From Bacteroidia bacterium (lineage in GTDB: Bacteria; Bacteroidota; Bacteroidia; Flavobacteriales; Flavobacteriaceae): a stretch of 64,000 nt of DNA. This document shows, piece after piece, positions 42,978-64,000 of the stretch. The translations under genes and the position numbers were made by a program. The notes beneath the pieces were generated by a model. The model worked only from the letters and a program-made list of their open reading frames with translations, had not been told where the DNA came from and made no database searches. Numbering within the stretch: the first letter of the stretch is position 1; the number at the start of each line of letters is the position of its first letter. The stretch lies in NCBI GenBank assembly GCA_030428705.1, contig JAUIDI010000010.1:49500-113499 (forward strand), given 5' to 3'.

Positions 42978-43383
42978 ATTCTAATTTTTTACAAGACTCA
43001 AAATTAAACAATTTATATGACAGCGAGAAGGTCTTCATTGTAACAAAAAGACTTCCGATTATCGTGTTTTTCGGCATGCTGTCCAATACGACAGTTTTAC
43101 CGTCAACTACTAAACCTAACGCTTTATCCGATGGTGACCTTCTTCATCGACAAATGGTAACGTTCATCGTTCCATTTAGGCTTTTGCACCCATTCACCAG
43201 TTCTTTGTATAGTATTAACCAAATCTTGAATAGCGACAAAAGCACTTTATTATTCCCCAAAATAATTTAGGCGCTACAGAATGAACTTGACCTTAACGAT
43301 TATATTTCACCTTTTCGGGTAAAGAACATTATGTAGCTTCTAATTATAAGGCGATGATCCGTAAGATCCATAACGTTATAATT

Positions 43384-45819
43384 ATGAAGAAACTTTTACT
43401 CCTACAAAACACTTTGTCCAAATTCTTTTTCGTTGTTTGCGCATTAACCGCATTTTCCATGAATGCGCAGTTAAAAAAAGACTTTGCACCGAGGTATTCT
43501 GAAACTTTGAACGGTGATTTTACCATGATCGCCAATAATGTGCTATCGAGACACGCGACCAATAATTATGACGGTACCGAAAGCAACCATGATTTTGATG
43601 ACAATATTTTTGTCGATATCGATACCGATCCGACGACCTTTAATTCAAGTAGCGCCAATCTGGCCAACCCGGCTCCTGGCAATTCATGCTTGACCATTGA
43701 ACGCGTATTTTTATATTGGTCGGCCGCCGACAAGGAATATGAAGTTGACGGCGGTGGTAATGTGCTTGCCGGAGACGGAGGCCCAGAACCTGCTTGGAAC
43801 TACAATGAAATCAAAATGATGCTTCCGGGTTCTACGACCTATGACGCAACTTTGATGGCAGATGAGGTCATTTATCGAGGTAGGGACGAACATTTTGTAA
43901 ATGATCCTTATATATGTGTAAAGGATATTACAAGTTGGGTACAGAACCTGAACAACCCTTTTGGCAAATACCAAATAGCAAACGTAAAAGCGACCGAAGG
44001 TCGTCTACTGGGTCATGATGGCGGAAATGTAGGAACATCTGGCGGGTGGCAGATTGTCTTTGTTTATCAGAGTCCGACCTTGCCCCAAAAGAACATTACC
44101 TTATTTGACGGATATGCTCACATCACGGCCAGCCAAAATAATTTTGACGTGACTTTTAACGGCTTTCAGACCGTTCCGAACGGACGTGTCAAAGCCAACA
44201 TGGTTATAGGGTCATTTGAAGGAGACCGCGGCATTAGTCAAGATCAATTGTTGATTTTCAATACAAATGGTGTTTGGGAACCGTTAACCACGCCTATGCG
44301 TCTTGCCGATAACTTTTTCAACAGCTCGATAACCACAAACGGCTCGGATTTCCTTGATAGAATGCCGGCCAGTACCAATACGCTCGGGTACGATGCTTCT
44401 CTTTTCGACCTTGACAATAATGCCAATAGGTTGATAACCAACAATCAAACCTCTGCAGTAATCAGAATGACATCGAACCAAGAGACGTACGGGCTATATC
44501 TTTTGGGTATGGCAGTTGAAGTCTGGGAACCTTCGTTAAACCAGTTGGAACTGTACGCCATGGCTTCAAATGAGAATCCCAGGGCCGGAGAGACCATTCA
44601 AATCTATTTGGATGTCGCCAATACCGGTAATGACAATATTCGTGATTTGACCTTTGTTACAACAATCCCTCCGGAAATGGAATTTGTTTCCGTTGAACCA
44701 TTGCCCTCCGAAATAACCTATAATTTCGATTCAAATACCCGGGAATTGACCTTCATGGTCGCTGATGGGTATACCGATGTGTCGGGAACGCCTTATACAA
44801 TTCAATATGCGTTGCGCGTTCAGGATGATTCGTATTTTGGAAACCTCCCTGCATGTACTTTTGAATCGAGTTCACAAACGATGGCCTCATTTTCGGGTGA
44901 AATAAATACCACGCCAAAAACCGAGTACAGTTCATTTACCTTCGACGATTGTGGTATAGGAAACGAAGATGCTACCATAATCTCAATAAGCATAACAGAT
45001 ATTCAAGCACCAACTTTTGACGGAGAATTGCCCGCGGATATTACCGTCGAATGTGACGAGGTGCCCGACCCAGCCGTTTTGACCGCTACGGACTACTGCG
45101 ATATGAATCCTATTGTAACCTTTAACGAAATGGCGACCAACAATCGTGATTGCGGAACCGGTTACGAGATTACAAGAACTTGGACGGCCACCGACAATAG
45201 CGGAAACAGCTTTACGCATACCCGGATTATTACGGTCAATGGAAATCCATGTTTGATGGACGTCGAGGCTCCGGTTTTTGTAGAGGAACTTCCCATGGAT
45301 ATTACGGTAGATTGTGATAACGTTCCAGATGCGGAAATTTTGACCGCCATTGATAATTGCGATATGGATCCCGAGGTAACTTTCACTGAAACGGCCACGA
45401 ACGACCGTGATTGTACCACCGGATATGAAATTACAAGAACATGGATTGCCACGGACGATGCCGGCAACCAAACAACACATACCCAAATTATTGTCGTGAA
45501 TGCCGATTTGCCCTGTAGTATTGATGATTTGATAGTGTCAAAGACAATTACTTCGAATGGCGACGGCATAAATGACATGTTCGAGATAACCGGTCTTGAG
45601 GCCTGCAATTACATCTATCAATTGAGAATATTTAACCGATGGGGCAATATAGTATACGAATCGAACGATTATAAAAATGACTGGGGCGGATTTGCCCCTA
45701 ATAATTCCCTTGGGAATTCAGGTATGCTACCTTCTGGAACTTATTATTATATCATCGGTTTTAATAATACAGAAATCAAACCGATCAACGGGTATATTTA
45801 TATTGGATCCAATATTTAA
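43384..45819 (+). CDS. Large secreted surface protein with two HYR-like repeats and T9SS type-B sorting domain
   Basis: Signal peptide; tandem repeat ITVECDEVPDPAVLTATDYCDMNPIVTF / ITVDCDNVPDAEILTAIDNCDMDPEVTF; C-terminus SNGDGINDMFEI...FNRWGNIVYESNDYKNDWGG...LPSGTYYYII. Confidence 0.9.
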   Translation: MKKLLLLQNTLSKFFFVVCALTAFSMNAQLKKDFAPRYSETLNGDFTMIANNVLSRHATNNYDGTESNHDFDDNIFVDIDTDPTTFNSSSANLANPAPGNSCLTIERVFLYWSAADKEYEVDGGGNVLAGDGGPEPAWNYNEIKMMLPGSTTYDATLMADEVIYRGRDEHFVNDPYICVKDITSWVQNLNNPFGKYQIANVKATEGRLLGHDGGNVGTSGGWQIVFVYQSPTLPQKNITLFDGYAHITASQNNFDVTFNGFQTVPNGRVKANMVIGSFEGDRGISQDQLLIFNTNGVWEPLTTPMRLADNFFNSSITTNGSDFLDRMPASTNTLGYDASLFDLDNNANRLITNNQTSAVIRMTSNQETYGLYLLGMAVEVWEPSLNQLELYAMASNENPRAGETIQIYLDVANTGNDNIRDLTFVTTIPPEMEFVSVEPLPSEITYNFDSNTRELTFMVADGYTDVSGTPYTIQYALRVQDDSYFGNLPACTFESSSQTMASFSGEINTTPKTEYSSFTFDDCGIGNEDATIISISITDIQAPTFDGELPADITVECDEVPDPAVLTATDYCDMNPIVTFNEMATNNRDCGTGYEITRTWTATDNSGNSFTHTRIITVNGNPCLMDVEAPVFVEELPMDITVDCDNVPDAEILTAIDNCDMDPEVTFTETATNDRDCTTGYEITRTWIATDDAGNQTTHTQIIVVNADLPCSIDDLIVSKTITSNGDGINDMFEITGLEACNYIYQLRIFNRWGNIVYESNDYKNDWGGFAPNNSLGNSGMLPSGTYYYIIGFNNTEIKPINGYIYIGSNI

Positions 45820-45823
45820 TTAT

Positions 45824-46729
45824 ATGAGACACATTAGGAAACATATTTTTGTATTGGCTTTAGGTTTCACTTTGTTTTCAAGTGCCCAACAATTACCACA
45901 ATTTACCCAATATGTTTACAATACGATGTCGATAAACCCGGCTTATGCAGGCAGTAGGGAGACATTGAATGTTACCGCACTCCATCGCAACCAATGGGCT
46001 GGTATTGATGGTAATCCGACTACAAGTACACTTTCAGTGCATACACCGATCAGGTTTAGCCGGGTCGGCCTAGGCCTGTCTTACATCAATGACCGGCTAG
46101 GGTTCGAAAAGACAAATTACATTTATGCCGATTTTTCATATACGGTACCAGTAAGTAGCGAGGTCAATATGGCTTTTGGATTAAAAGGCGGTTTCACCAA
46201 TTATCGCTTGGAAACCCCTGATGGGAACGACCCCTTCTTTTCGGGGGGATTTACAGAATGGAATCCCAATTTTGGGGCAGGCATCTATATCAGTTCGAAC
46301 AAATGGTATATCGGGGCATCTTCACCTAGAATTTTGAATACCGATTTGAATGAAGGGGAATTCGCCGCCTTGGAGCGAAATAGTTATTATGCCATTGGGG
46401 GTTATGTTTTCGATTTGGGCAAAACCACTAAATTTAAGACCACGGCCATTATGAAATATACTAATGGAGCTCCTGCCACATACGACATCTCTGCCAATTT
46501 TCTACTTTTTGAAAAGTTCTGGATCGGGGCATCTTATCGCTTTAACGATGCAGATAGTTTTGGGGTGGTCATGGATTATTCTATTTCCAATTCCTTTAGA
46601 TTAGGGTATGCCTATGACCAACCTACGGCTACTTTTAGGCCCTATTCAGGAGGCACCCATGAGGTAATCCTCATTTACGAGCTTTTCAATAGACGTATCG
46701 GAGGCCTTAAATCTCCTAGATATTTCTAA
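45824..46729 (+). CDS. Type IX secretion system membrane protein, PorP/SprF family
   Basis: QQLPQFTQYVYNTMSINPAYAGSRETLNVTALHRNQWAG; outer-membrane beta-barrel; ATG 5 nt after upstream stop. Confidence 0.95.
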   Translation: MRHIRKHIFVLALGFTLFSSAQQLPQFTQYVYNTMSINPAYAGSRETLNVTALHRNQWAGIDGNPTTSTLSVHTPIRFSRVGLGLSYINDRLGFEKTNYIYADFSYTVPVSSEVNMAFGLKGGFTNYRLETPDGNDPFFSGGFTEWNPNFGAGIYISSNKWYIGASSPRILNTDLNEGEFAALERNSYYAIGGYVFDLGKTTKFKTTAIMKYTNGAPATYDISANFLLFEKFWIGASYRFNDADSFGVVMDYSISNSFRLGYAYDQPTATFRPYSGGTHEVILIYELFNRRIGGLKSPRYF

Positions 46730-57393: not shown

Positions 57394-58194
57394 TTACTCT
57401 TTCACATTATCGTCAAGGTCGTTGTTCTCACGATACGCGATACTACGCTTCCGCATATAGTCCCAAATCTTAAAACGGTCATGGGTATCGACCGTGGACT
57501 GAAAAATGGAATCGATCTCGCAGAAATACATAAAATCGGAAATCTTTTCTTCCGGAATCTGAAAATCAATCCTGAACAACGAGTCAGCGTACATTTCACG
57601 TACCCGTTGGGTACGGGCATACGTATTATTTCTTGCAACCCGACCTTTCAGCATTTTTGTGCGTCCGGAAATTCCGTTCAAAATCGGATTCAAAGGTAAC
57701 AGACCCCTCCCCGATGTTGCCTCGAACAATTGTCGCTCGGCCATGGTCGGCACCTTTACATAAGCATTCGGCAAACCCAAGGTAGAGGCGGTTACCACTT
57801 CTTCATCCGTACCGATGCGTTCAACATCCCTTGACATATTACCGGTCAAGTTATAGGGCATGATCACCACTTCATCGAGCTCGGTCAATGCTTCCTCCAA
57901 AGGTATCGACAACATTTTGCTTTTTAGCATATCGGCGCTCACTACGATTTCCTTCCTTTTGAATTGGACCGCCGAAAAAACAATGGTGTCGTTCAAATTG
58001 GCCGATATGGAGAAAAATCCGTTTTCGTCGGTAATCGTTGCCCGTTGTATGGTCGTATTCAGAACGTGTGTGGCGGCCACATCGCCATCGGTACTATAGA
58101 CGCGGCCCTCAAGCCTACCTGATAACAAGGTTTGCCCACTCAAAGAAGTGGAAAACAAAATAACAACTAACGGAAGTACTTTACTTTTCGTCAT
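57394..58194 (-). CDS. Secreted protein with carboxypeptidase-like regulatory domain
   Basis: LEGRVYSTDGDVAATHVLNTTIQRATITDENGFFSISANLNDTIVFSAVQFKRKEI. Confidence 0.8.
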   Translation of the reverse strand: MTKSKVLPLVVILFSTSLSGQTLLSGRLEGRVYSTDGDVAATHVLNTTIQRATITDENGFFSISANLNDTIVFSAVQFKRKEIVVSADMLKSKMLSIPLEEALTELDEVVIMPYNLTGNMSRDVERIGTDEEVVTASTLGLPNAYVKVPTMAERQLFEATSGRGLLPLNPILNGISGRTKMLKGRVARNNTYARTQRVREMYADSLFRIDFQIPEEKISDFMYFCEIDSIFQSTVDTHDRFKIWDYMRKRSIAYRENNDLDDNVKE

Positions 58195-58924
58195 CTAGGG
58201 TTTCACGAAAGTTCTTGCTTTGCGTAACCAAAAAATCGATCAACTGAAATTCGTGATCTTGTCTTAGCAATTCCTGTTCGGGCGACTGTGCATCGCAATA
58301 GACCAAAAAGGCATCGATTTTGTCTTGGGGTATTTTCAGGTCGAGTACAAAAAAAGCATCATCATAAACATGTCGGAGTACTTCGCTCACCTTTAATTTG
58401 GGACCTGATGTAGCTTTTTCTTTGTTGGTTTTCAACAATACCTTAAAAATGTTCTTAAGGTTCAGGCCATCACGCAGAATGTTTCCTGTACGCGGCATGG
58501 CGATATTTTCGACTTCCGTAGATCGATCTTGTTCGTATTCAAATTCTTTTAGCTCTTCATTCTTGACCTGAATAAAGCGTTCAGGGTCATCGGGAGTTAC
58601 CACGACTTCGTCCAATTGGGTCACTTTTTCGTTCACTTCGACTACAAGTCGGTTCTTTTGAAGAATGTCGTTCGTAATCTTGACGACCATCAATTGATAG
58701 TTGACCGCGGTAAAGGCCAATTCGTCACCTTCTTTGACGGCAATTGCAAATTCACCCCTATCATTGGTTACGGTACCGGCCTCTGAAGTAACATTGATGA
58801 CATTCTCATTGGGCACACTTATATTTCTGTAGAGTACCTGGCCTCGAAGCAAACGACGGTCGTCATCTTGTGCGTATGAACATACGGTACAAACCAAAAA
58901 TAAAAGGAGTAGTAATCGTCTCAT
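58181..58924 (-). CDS. Secreted protein with carboxypeptidase-like regulatory domain (paralogue of the neighbour)
   Basis: LRGQVLYRNISVPNENVINVTSEAGTVTNDRGEFAIAVKEGDELAFTAVNYQ; stop overlaps next start by 14 nt. Confidence 0.8.
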   Translation of the reverse strand: MRRLLLLLFLVCTVCSYAQDDDRRLLRGQVLYRNISVPNENVINVTSEAGTVTNDRGEFAIAVKEGDELAFTAVNYQLMVVKITNDILQKNRLVVEVNEKVTQLDEVVVTPDDPERFIQVKNEELKEFEYEQDRSTEVENIAMPRTGNILRDGLNLKNIFKVLLKTNKEKATSGPKLKVSEVLRHVYDDAFFVLDLKIPQDKIDAFLVYCDAQSPEQELLRQDHEFQLIDFLVTQSKNFRETLDDEK

Positions 58925-59269: not shown

Positions 59270-61975
59270 ATGAAAATGTCCAACATGCCCGCCCTTCTCG
59301 GATTGCTGTTTTGCTGTACGATTTACGGACAAATAAAAATTGGGGATAATCCGCAGATCATAGACCCCAGCTCGGTCTTGGAATTGGAAAGTCGAGAAAG
59401 GGTATTGGTCATTACCAGGGTAACCACGGCCGAAATGAATGCGATCATGCCCCTTCGCGGTGCGCTGGTTTACAATACCGACGTTCAATGTGTGCACTAT
59501 TATGATGGTACCCAATGGGTGAACCTTTGCGAAAATAACGGGTCGGCCAATATTACCGCCGATCCGATCATTCATGATATTCCGACTATTGCTTTGACCC
59601 CTTCGGCCGATGGTACCAATATAGAAATTGCCGAAAACAGTATTCGAAGCGAAATGATCGTCGATGGCGGTATAAACGGAGTGGATATTCAAAATGGATC
59701 CATCGGACCCGGAAAGTTGCAGAACAATTCGGTGACTCAAGACAAGTTGTCCGAGAATGCCGTAGGTGCTTTTGCCTTGGATAACGCCAATATTGGTCTG
59801 ACGGACTTTACCAATGATGCGGGTTTTATTACTAATGCTAATATTGTCAGTGCTGCTGCTAACAATGCAATTACAAATAATGGGGGGGCTTTTTACGATA
59901 ACTCACCGGTTCTTAATGCTGTTAACGATAATACAATCCTTATAAACAATCATATTGCGGCAGATGCCGATACCAATGTCAATAACGAGATACAAAGTCT
60001 CACGTTGACCGGTAACTCGCTTAGCATCTCAGGCAGTAACACAGTGACTTTTCCCAATATAACAGGTGAAATTGACAATAATGAGTTAATTACGAATGCC
60101 GTCCTTTCAGGAACCGACTTAATTATTACCGACCCTGGACAGACTTGGACCATACCACTAGCTAGTCTTGGGGGAAGCAATGGAGCTGACGGTAGCATAA
60201 TTGATCCTAATGGTGGAACAAATATTAATATAACTGGTGCCGGTACTCAGGAAAGTCCCTATGTAATCAACAGTACGTTTACCGAAGTTGACGGAAGCCC
60301 GACCAATGAGTTAATAACAGCATCCGTTCTGAACGGAAATATCTTGACCATTACCGAGGGCGGGAATCCATTTGATATTGATTTGACCGGACTTGGAGGC
60401 GGTAGCGGCACTCAAAATCTGACAAATGTTCTTACCCAAGGTAATGATGCCGGAAATACAATAATCACCAATTTAGGTTCTGAACCAACGGATCCAACAT
60501 CTGCGGCCACAGTTGGTTATGTGAATAACGCAATAATAGGTGGGGGAACACCTCTTGAATTTGATAATTCGACCATTTCTGGATCAGGAGCCATTGGAGA
60601 CCCTTATACTGTTGCTGATGAAGCAATAACTAGGGCAAAGATTGCAACCGCTACGGATGGTGCAACAGCAGGTCAAATATTAAAAGTTAATGTTGGAGGT
60701 AATGGTGTTGATTGGGTAGATCCAACTGTATTTGTGGATGCTACATTAACCGGAGATGGTACTACCCCGGCAACAGCTCTAAGTATTGCCGATGGTGCGA
60801 TCACCACCGACAAGATACTGGACCAAAACGTCACGCCGCCCAAGATACAGCCATCCGCCACCGACGGACAGGTGCTCACCACCTCGGGAGGGACCGTACA
60901 ATGGGCAACGGCAACGGCAGGGGCCGTGGGAACCGGGACCACAATCGATGGGGACGGGACAGTGGGCAACGAACTCGAAGTGGCCGACAATGCAATCACA
61001 TCCGCAATGATCGTGGACGGCACTATCGTCTCGGCGGATATAGCAACGGACGGGGTAACCAACACGAACGTCGCCGATGGTGCGATCACCACCGACAAGA
61101 TACTGGACCAAAACGTCACGCCGCCCAAGATACAGCCATCCGCCACGGACGGACAGGTGCTCACCACAGTCGGGGGGACGGCCCAATGGGCGGCAGCGAC
61201 CTCGGGCCAAAACCTTTTCGACGCTGATTTACCATTGGCATCAACTCGAACACATAATCTAGATGGGAATAATTTCAACCTCAATGGTCCCGGATTCGTT
61301 GGAATCGGGACAGATAATCCCACAAATAAGCTACATGTTGACGGAGCTGTTCGCGCTGAAGGTGGTTTTAGGAGTACTTTTGGAACACTACCAGGTAGTG
61401 TTGCGTATAGTTTCTATAACGACTCTGATACTGGTATGTATAGAGCAGGCGCAGATCAACTGGCATTTTCCACTGGCGGTGCTGAAGCAATGCGAATCGA
61501 TGGCTCCCAAAATGTTGGTATCGGACCCAAGTTTGCGAGTCCGATAGATGATCCCATTGATGCCAGATTACATGTCGATGGAGATATTTATGCAGAAGGA
61601 GATTTTTATTCAACATTAGGAACTGGAGTTCAACCGATCCCGGATTACGTTTTTGAGTATTATTTTTTAGGTAGATCCGAACTAAAGGAAAACTATAATT
61701 TTAAGAGTCTTGAAGAGATTGAAAACTTTGTAAAAAAGAATCATCATCTTCCCGGAATAAAATCAGCCGCCACCGCAATGGCCGAAGGAAAATGGAATTT
61801 GGGCGAATCTAATATTCAAAACCTCGAAAAAATCGAGGAACTCTTTTTGCATACCATAGAACAAGAAAACAAGATCAAACAATTACAAAAAGAAAACCAA
61901 ACAATTTCAAACGAACTTATCGCTCTCAAAAAAGAATTGGAGGTTATAAAAAATCTAATAAAAAAATCGAATTGA
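59270..61975 (+). CDS. Secreted tail-fibre-like repeat protein (head module, mosaic beta-repeat shaft, C-terminal coiled coil)
   Basis: Signal peptide; head IKIGDNPQIIDPSSVLELES...PLRGALVYNTDVQCVHYYDGTQWVNLC; repeats ADGAITTDKILDQNVTPPKIQPSATDGQVLTT; FSTGGAEAMRIDGSQNVGIG; C-terminal HHLPGIKSA...LEKIEELFLHTIEQENKIKQLQKENQ. Confidence 0.88.
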   Translation: MKMSNMPALLGLLFCCTIYGQIKIGDNPQIIDPSSVLELESRERVLVITRVTTAEMNAIMPLRGALVYNTDVQCVHYYDGTQWVNLCENNGSANITADPIIHDIPTIALTPSADGTNIEIAENSIRSEMIVDGGINGVDIQNGSIGPGKLQNNSVTQDKLSENAVGAFALDNANIGLTDFTNDAGFITNANIVSAAANNAITNNGGAFYDNSPVLNAVNDNTILINNHIAADADTNVNNEIQSLTLTGNSLSISGSNTVTFPNITGEIDNNELITNAVLSGTDLIITDPGQTWTIPLASLGGSNGADGSIIDPNGGTNINITGAGTQESPYVINSTFTEVDGSPTNELITASVLNGNILTITEGGNPFDIDLTGLGGGSGTQNLTNVLTQGNDAGNTIITNLGSEPTDPTSAATVGYVNNAIIGGGTPLEFDNSTISGSGAIGDPYTVADEAITRAKIATATDGATAGQILKVNVGGNGVDWVDPTVFVDATLTGDGTTPATALSIADGAITTDKILDQNVTPPKIQPSATDGQVLTTSGGTVQWATATAGAVGTGTTIDGDGTVGNELEVADNAITSAMIVDGTIVSADIATDGVTNTNVADGAITTDKILDQNVTPPKIQPSATDGQVLTTVGGTAQWAAATSGQNLFDADLPLASTRTHNLDGNNFNLNGPGFVGIGTDNPTNKLHVDGAVRAEGGFRSTFGTLPGSVAYSFYNDSDTGMYRAGADQLAFSTGGAEAMRIDGSQNVGIGPKFASPIDDPIDARLHVDGDIYAEGDFYSTLGTGVQPIPDYVFEYYFLGRSELKENYNFKSLEEIENFVKKNHHLPGIKSAATAMAEGKWNLGESNIQNLEKIEELFLHTIEQENKIKQLQKENQTISNELIALKKELEVIKNLIKKSN
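60788..60882 (+). repeat. 95-bp direct repeat, copy 1
   Basis: Identical to 61073-61167 except one synonymous change (60862 C vs 61147 G); spacing 285 bp. Confidence 0.97.
61073..61167 (+). repeat. 95-bp direct repeat, copy 2
   Basis: See copy 1. Confidence 0.97.
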
Positions 61976-63120
61976 AAGCGATACTGTACATTCTATTTCT
62001 TTCGGCAGGCATTCTCGTCAATGCCCAAACTGCTTTCTATAACCAAGGCAATATACGTATTCATGAAAACGGGCAAATCGGTTTTCATACCGACCTCATC
62101 AACGATGGTGTCTTTGACGAGAATCTCGGGCTGGCCGGGTTTTACAGCAATGAATTCCGTGATATTTTCGGGGCGTTCCCTCCCACATTTTTCGACGTCG
62201 AATTCGATACGCAAATTAGCACAACGGTTAATACTACGGTCAATGTCGTAAATAATGTCAATTTTATCGATGGCAACGTCTTTTCACCTCGAATGCAATC
62301 GAGTATCGCATTGAACTTTCTTGAAAACGCCTTTTATAACGGTGAAGGTGATTTCAATAAGATCGATGGTTATGCCAGTATCAATGGCCAACAGAACTTC
62401 ACATTCCCTGTGGGTGATTTTGAACAATTGCGCCCCTTGATCATGACCTCTTCGGGAATCAACACCTTGGCCAAATGTGCCTATTTCGCCGAGAACCCGA
62501 ATAATCCACCAAGTTTGGATAATGGCTTTGATACCGGCCGAAAGGCAAGTAATATCGGCACTATAAGTCCGGTCGAATTTTGGAGGTTGGAAGGTGAAGT
62601 GTCTTCGACAATCAGCATCAGCTGGAACGAGCGCAGTAATCTGACCGCTTTGACCGATGATGTAAGCACAATAATCCCGGTTGGGTTTAGTAAAAGAATA
62701 AACCAATGGATAAGTTTAGGGGTCGATGCGCAGGCCGGAGATCTTTCCCAAGGTTTTGTAACCTCGGCCGAATTTGTTCCAAACGACTTTGAGGCCATTA
62801 CATTTGCCGGTGCAGGCGAACCCGTCGAACTGTTGGCGTTGGATAATTATTTAGTATCCGCCAATGGCGATGGTATCAACGACTTTCTTGAAATCCCAGA
62901 GTTGGAACAGTCGCCCAACAACGAACTTTTTATATACGATCGCTTTGGGATGAAAGTATTCGAGCAAGAAAATTATAGCGACGAATTTACGGGATTCGCC
63001 AATACGGGCGATTTTATAATCCAACGAGAAAAAGGGCTTCCCTCCGGAGTCTATTTTTATGTCGTTTCCATGAAAGATTTAGGATTGGATTTTCAGGGAT
63101 TTTTCTACTTGACCCGATAA
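61972..63120 (+). CDS. Secreted protein with T9SS type-B (gliding motility-associated) C-terminal domain
   Basis: TTG start in TTGA overlap; signal peptide KAILYILFLSAGILVNAQ; C-terminus LVSANGDGINDFLEIPELE...IYDRFGMKVFEQENYSDEFTGFAN...LPSGVYFYVVSM. Confidence 0.88.
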   Translation: MKAILYILFLSAGILVNAQTAFYNQGNIRIHENGQIGFHTDLINDGVFDENLGLAGFYSNEFRDIFGAFPPTFFDVEFDTQISTTVNTTVNVVNNVNFIDGNVFSPRMQSSIALNFLENAFYNGEGDFNKIDGYASINGQQNFTFPVGDFEQLRPLIMTSSGINTLAKCAYFAENPNNPPSLDNGFDTGRKASNIGTISPVEFWRLEGEVSSTISISWNERSNLTALTDDVSTIIPVGFSKRINQWISLGVDAQAGDLSQGFVTSAEFVPNDFEAITFAGAGEPVELLALDNYLVSANGDGINDFLEIPELEQSPNNELFIYDRFGMKVFEQENYSDEFTGFANTGDFIIQREKGLPSGVYFYVVSMKDLGLDFQGFFYLTR

Positions 63121-63286
63121 ATTTTCCCAATTAACATCATCGTTTAAAGGCCATATTCAGCGGTGATTGAAATTCAATTCCCATTTTACAACATTCTATA
63201 AGGCACTCACAACATTTTATGGAGATTTTGGCGACCAGCATCTAATTTTACACTTGATTAGATAATCAATCCAAATCTTATCTAAA

Positions 63287-64000
63287 ATGGACTTAAAAAA
63301 ACTTGGGCTATTATTGCTCTTCTTGGCCTTCATAAATGCTGCAACCGCACAGTTAAAAATTGGTGAAAATCCAAATTCTATCGATCCCACTTCGATCGTT
63401 GAAATGGAAAGTACCTCAAAAGCCTTGGTCTTGACACGACTGACCACGGCCCAAATGCAGAATATCGTTCCACTTCGTGGCGCAATGGTTTATAATACAG
63501 AGACGAAATGCATTCATTATTACGATGGAATGCAATGGAACAACCTTTGCCAAAGCTCTGATCAAGGAACTTTTTCGTTTGTAAATAACGGCAATGGTAC
63601 CTTCACCATAAATTATTCCGATGGTACCTCGTTTACCTCCCAAGACCTAACAGGCCCGCAGGGAATCCAGGGAGAGAAAGGTGACAAGGGAGACCAAGGG
63701 GACGTAGGTCCTCAGGGGATCCAGGGTGAAAAGGGAGACCAGGGAGACCAAGGGGACGTAGGTCCTCAGGGGATCCAGGGAGAGAAAGGTGACAAGGGTG
63801 ACCAGGGCGATCAAGGGATCCAAGGTATACAAGGCGAAAAAGGCGACAAGGGAGACCAAGGGGACGTAGGCCCGCAGGGAATCCAGGGAGAAAAAGGAGA
63901 CAAGGGAGACCAAGGCGATCAGGGTATACAGGGTATCCAGGGCGAAAAAGGCGACAAGGGTGACCAAGGGGACGTAGGCCCGCAGGGAATCCAGGGAGAG
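63287..64000 (+). CDS. Secreted collagen-like (Gly-X-Y) repeat protein with the same head module; truncated by window end
   Basis: ATG at 63287; open to base 64000 (238 codons, so absent from the ORF track); [43 protein letters not shown]...[27 protein letters not shown] then [18 protein letters not shown] repeats. Confidence 0.9.
63653..64000 (+). repeat. Tandem repeats encoding collagen-like triplets (54-bp and 108-bp units)
   Basis: GPQ-GIQ unit starts at 63653, 63707, 63761, 63869 and 63977 (spacings 54, 54, 108, 108); continues past window. Confidence 0.95.

Follow-up and report, generated by a model that had tools for sequence, protein, structure and literature searches.

We wondered how a bacterial surface fibre might be displayed when the domain that would direct it to the surface is encoded by the neighbouring gene. 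T9SS cargo is defined by a C-terminal domain (CTD) on the cargo itself, and proteome predictions therefore miss passengers without one. The question arose from the window, a stretch of 64,000 nucleotides that forms the end of contig C10 in a flavobacterial genome of 4.16 Mb. A first-pass annotation had placed a fibre gene, a partner gene and a collagen-like fibre gene at its far end, and all three were found there, with the following features.

59270..61975, plus strand: fibre 1 gene, 901 aa, with Sec signal peptide, head module, repetitive tail-fibre-like shaft, C-terminal module and coiled coil, without a T9SS CTD
59327..59545, plus strand: head module 1 (residues 20-92), the mature N-terminus, with two conserved Cys (fibre residues 74 and 87)
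59546..61490, plus strand: shaft of fibre 1, phage-tail-fibre-like repeats that vary among species
61600..61972, plus strand: C-terminal module of fibre 1 (PDYVF...HLPGI...), with a heptad-like coiled coil at its end
61972..61975, plus strand: TTGA overlap of the partner start TTG and the fibre stop TGA
61972..63120, plus strand: partner 1 gene, 382 aa, TTG start, with signal peptide, beta-rich N-domain and type-B T9SS CTD
62842..63111, plus strand: type-B CTD of partner 1 (CHU_C), residues 291-380
63287..64000, plus strand: fibre 2 gene, collagen-like, open at the window end and cut by the contig end
63347..63562, plus strand: head module 2
63650..64000, plus strand: Gly-X-Y shaft of fibre 2, with 54-nt repeats

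Both window fibres start with a Sec-type signal peptide that is directly followed by the head module. As had been proposed, this module is common to the two (58-59% identity over ~70 aa of a ~72-aa mature N-terminus) and the shafts are unrelated: that of fibre 1 matches PHROG tail-fibre families and that of fibre 2 is a collagen repeat (PF01391, E 9e-20, 70.7 bits against a cut-off of 27.2). The fibre was described as lacking a T9SS CTD of its own, and we indeed found neither a type-A nor a type-B CTD in Pfam or NCBIfam up to E 0.1. The TTGA coupling of fibre stop and partner start was seen in the sequence, and the partner carries the predicted type-B CTD, with CHU_C (PF13585, E 8e-23, 80.8 bits, cut-off 27) and TIGR04131 (E 1.4e-9, 38 bits, cut-off 35) both above cut-off. 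Its signal peptide was read from the sequence and corresponds to a hydrophobic helix at residues 2-16 of a confident structure model (pLDDT 89).

The window and contig C10 stop inside the collagen repeat, and the first-pass annotation had predicted that a type-B CTD gene would also follow the collagen-like gene past position 64000. In this genome the 54-nt pattern is restricted to two places, the end of contig C10 and the end of contig C1, and we located the continuation of the fibre 2 gene on C1 (about C1:213962-215178, minus strand). Beyond the end of the collagen frame on this contig come a gene of 513 aa, whose head is degenerate, and next a type-B CTD gene of 389 aa (partner 2), a paralogue 44% identical to partner 1. 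In G001, a genome of the same genus, the entire arrangement lies within a single contig and both flanks carry the same neighbours; the fibre 2 orthologue there is an unbroken frame of 1324 aa. Given a join of C10 and C1 that is based on repeats and synteny, with no read across the gap, the prediction therefore holds on C1 and in G001. The 513-aa gene between collagen fibre and partner 2 (L014 12420-13961, minus strand) has a C1q-like-looking tail, which is fused to the collagen gene in G001. No LPXTG motif was found at the C1 ends of the collagen gene, and the tip of the G001 orthologue gave a weak BclA_C match (22.6 bits, cut-off 38).

A scan with the partner N-domain retrieved 80 loci in Flavobacteriaceae, among them Maribacter, Zobellia, Arenibacter, Muriicola and Eudoraea. 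Typically, two BamP-like genes on the opposite strand come first, followed by head-fibre 1, partner 1 and head-fibre 2, then, in some loci, a small degenerate-head gene, and last partner 2. Among 105 partner genes, 26 were cut by contig ends, and 78 of the 79 assessable ones shared their cassette with a head gene; 68 of these pairs were directly adjacent in one frame and 10 had a frame break or an extra gene in between. At the remaining partner (L106), a toxin-antitoxin pair separates the partner from a fibre C-terminus upstream, and the start of that fibre is cut by a contig end. The inserted pair (L106 2283-2842) is MazEF-like. The adjacency of head genes and type-B CTD genes that had been put up for checking is thus consistent and involves one specific type-B CTD family. 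Since many of the loci are of common ancestry, these counts are not independent, and the neighbouring BamP-like genes are also conserved in place. In the window the BamP-family-like paralogues lie at 57394-58194 and 58181-58924 on the minus strand (NCBIfam NF053692, below cut-off), and most of the complete loci that were examined have such a pair, divergently oriented, upstream of their fibre cassette.

In 45 intact first cassettes, mean identity was 67% for heads, 54% for partners and 28% for shafts, and a detectable tip was common to only 36% of first-cassette pairs. With a constant N-terminus but a variable shaft and tip, the fibres of the compared cassettes showed no constant export signal at the C-terminus. 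Of 23 second-cassette fibres, 13 are collagen and 10 are of another kind, with head and partner class unchanged, which supports the earlier idea of exchangeable shafts. The nearest neighbour fell into the same cassette class for 75/76 heads and likewise for 75/76 partners. The pair has thus been duplicated in tandem and has remained together while its shafts were replaced. One short frame fuses a head to a truncated type-B CTD (L113 10300-11067); we did not accept it as Rosetta-stone evidence, as the first part of the CTD is missing and the frame looks like a deletion remnant.

Adjacency and coupling alone are no proof of contact, and the two products might be co-expressed but separate surface proteins, the fibre leaving by another route and the partner acting as an independent type-B adhesin co-regulated in one adhesion programme. 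The spacing of the genes speaks against this: the gap from fibre to partner has a median of 3 nt and is at most 40 nt in 100 of 103 cases, whereas the gap from partner to the next fibre has a median of 217 nt and is never below 114 nt. The one-to-one pairing also survives duplication, both in tandem and in an ectopic copy beside mobile-element-like genes (L048), and an alternative outer membrane export signal was not recognised in the fibre with Pfam or NCBIfam. At the level of genomes, a census of 301 members of the family found strong heads (>95 bits) in 65, partners (>200 bits) in 66 and both in 63 (Fisher p about 1e-58, ignoring shared ancestry). The head motif as such is widespread, reaching E<=1e-6 in 160 of the 301 genomes, and its weak form (<90 bits) is generic; chance adjacency of a generic motif was nevertheless rejected, as the strong subfamily tracks the partner almost perfectly.

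Some observations count against display of the fibre by its partner. On long contigs there are a few heads that lack a partner (G003:C12, G262, G008 and a second copy in G085), and in G170 no CTD could be detected in one partner. Covariation of heads and partners (r 0.68) does not exceed that with an unrelated neighbour (r 0.71); with a partial r of 0.34 it is near the species background, and we discarded it as proof of contact. Taken together, the gap pattern, the kept pairing and the co-occurrence favour a functional unit, and we regard two separate proteins as a serious but unlikely alternative. In G085 (L194 5363-12798), one partner is flanked by two collagen fibres whose first ~45 residues are identical, apparently a recent duplication that left the second copy without a partner.

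We then considered what the constant module might do within such a unit. An AlphaFold2 monomer model shows a small beta module with confidence (pLDDT 87). Its best fold matches in the PDB (Foldseek) are the CBA120 tailspike, phage hyaluronidase, Mtd and the trimerisation domains of collagen XV/XVIII; each match is weak (best E 0.14), and all are trimeric fibre domains. Superposition on the collagen XV/XVIII domain gave an rmsd of 1.4-1.8 A over ~42 residues and a TM-score by target length of ~0.6. Sequence searches of the head against PDB and Pfam gave no match, and the likeness to this multiplexin domain could be analogy. Two cysteines of the module, Cys55 and Cys68, are both present in 111 of 117 heads, both missing in 6 and never found singly, and they face each other in a hairpin of the model (strands 55-59 and 64-66). 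Co-presence and position suggest a disulfide. The module is the N-terminus of the mature protein, immediately behind the signal peptide, and in the model its fold is similar to that of trimerisation-type fibre domains. It is therefore probably a base-proximal trimerisation-type module rather than an adhesive head, from which we infer a base that sets the trimer register for either kind of shaft. Conserved adjacency, exchangeable shafts and a fibre without CTD stood up from the earlier interpretation, whereas the word 'head' is probably wrong.

The module also resembles phage proteins. Seven matches at E<1e-3 among the predicted viral structures of BFVD were all phage proteins, one of them with collagen repeats, and the head sequence matched phage proteins at E 6e-4 and PHROG families at 5e-5. 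Since shaft and collagen repeat match PHROG and phage fibre proteins as well, the fibres might be taken for remnants of a prophage or of a phage-tail-like particle. Their neighbours are, however, chromosomal genes (peptidase-like, BamP-like, phosphoglycerate-mutase-like and methionine-aminopeptidase-like) that keep their place across genera, both window fibres have Sec-type signal peptides, and the vicinity showed neither virion genes nor phage enzyme genes. Gene neighbourhood and signal peptides led us to dismiss a phage origin of this kind as extremely improbable.

If the constant base is to be held at the cell surface, the partner is the candidate to hold it. Its N-domain has no Pfam family and its fold no PDB match at E<=1e-3; against PDB sequences the partner profile had a single significant match, GhpA of Aureispira, which is confined to the CTD. 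A cognate porP/sprF gene directly downstream is typical of a T9SS type-B substrate, though not universal. The genome encodes SprA, the T9SS translocon, and contains 15 CHU_C stretches and 8 PorP/SprF genes, all 8 of which lie away from partner 1 and partner 2. Elsewhere in the window, an 821-aa type-B CTD protein with HYR-like domains (43354-45819) is directly followed by a PorP/SprF gene (45677-46729). On leaving SprA, type-B CTD proteins are bound to PorP/SprF shuttles, which then keep them anchored (PMC9143113, PMC10994853, PMC12635249), and a shuttle encoded at another locus can be shared by orphan type-B substrates (PMC12618676). The partner would also need such a shuttle, which is absent from this locus.

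In a comparison of CTDs, the partners fell together with the type-B protein of contig C8 and distant partner-like proteins and apart from the SprB class. A gliding-track adhesin of SprB type is therefore not favoured, in line with the lack of an adjacent sprF. In the C8 locus and its orthologues a giant fibre is followed by a type-B CTD gene and sprF, and in G018 and G266 a gene with the C-terminal module of fibre 1 precedes a partner-like type-B gene, sprF and a PorE-like gene. The start of C8 (L013 1-3897) is a second collagen-like fibre locus, whose orthologous fibres reach 3084 aa and have a head-like motif at the N-terminus. Contig C17 encodes an orphan SprF-like protein (L221 14693-15766, minus strand) with no type-B gene beside it; it ends in CYCPAAQ and has twin cysteines in this tail, as does the gliding-track carrier SprF. 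Six more orphan type-B genes are found among the CHU_C genes of C17 and C15 (L224, L225, L226), most with HFTLKR-like CTDs and three in tandem.

A dedicated, co-encoded partner of similar size throughout, with an N-domain fold that has no solved relative, would also suit a transient export or assembly factor, such as a chaperone, a template or a trimer cap, in place of a permanent anchor. The type-B CTD proteins studied so far remain bound to their shuttle on the surface (PMC9143113, PMC12635249), so an anchor fits better, and we consider a transient role improbable.

Judged from the sequences, the two-gene pair suggests that a small type-B partner carries or anchors an interchangeable, CTD-less fibre on the cell surface. 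The first gene would provide a Sec-exported, probably trimeric fibre with a constant base, an exchangeable shaft of tail-fibre-like repeats or collagen and an exchangeable tip, and the second, closely coupled gene a dedicated partner that combines a conserved N-domain with a type-B CTD. This partner would pass SprA via the T9SS and remain surface-bound on a PorP/SprF-type shuttle encoded elsewhere, plausibly the SprF of C8. Its N-domain may hold the constant base, the fibre being co-exported with the partner or captured by it, and the variable tip would point outwards, where we infer an adhesive function. On balance, we think it likely that the loci are tandem fibre-display cassettes in which a T9SS-exported partner displays a CTD-less and probably trimeric fibre. 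A more general proposal is tentative, in our view possible but short of probable: the T9SS may export or display CTD-less trimeric fibres in trans, a small type-B adaptor binding the constant base of a preassembled fibre and carrying it across or onto the outer membrane; shaft and tip could then be exchanged with the secretion signal left as it is. In the open-licence literature we found no description of SprA exporting a CTD-less passenger, nor, in work on collagen-like proteins with T9SS or on CTD-less passengers, of a fibre paired with a type-B partner. If true, a family of CTD adaptors and CTD-less fibres would lengthen the list of T9SS-displayed proteins, give some orphan type-B genes a role and represent a natural modular surface-fibre system in marine flavobacteria.

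The fibres resemble several known systems in part. They recall the tail fibres and tailspikes of phages (Mtd, CBA120 TSP3, phage hyaluronidase) in an N-terminal module whose predicted fold is similar, a repetitive shaft and exchangeable tips, but they are chromosomal, have signal peptides and a T9SS CTD partner and lack virion genes. The long Gly-X-Y shaft recalls the bacterial collagen-like surface proteins Scl and BclA, the latter also through the weak tip match in G001; here, in contrast, no LPXTG anchor was seen, and an N-terminal module and a T9SS-partner gene are present. To the multiplexin trimerisation domain the likeness is one of modelled fold, with weak E-values and no PDB or Pfam sequence match. 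The grappling hook GhpA of Aureispira resembles the partner in CTD sequence but is one chain of 5898 aa with its own CTD, not a two-gene pair. The F. johnsoniae orphans Fjoh_1123, 1720 and 4934, which have Fjoh_1677 as common shuttle (PMC12618676) and are likened here by description, likewise have a type-B CTD without a neighbouring sprF; in this comparison two CTDs are about 44% identical, and the partner CTDs differ from the GHFTL[KY]R type of this genome's SprB-like protein. Closest in layout are the type-B systems with PorP/SprF shuttles, SprB-SprF, PG1035-PorP-PorE and Fjoh_3952-3951-3950: the partner likewise combines a Sec signal with a type-B CTD, and distant partner-like genes lie directly before sprF and a PorE-like gene. 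In those systems the known adhesin has its own CTD, whereas here no shuttle gene is adjacent, the fibre is free of a CTD and its small neighbour carries it.
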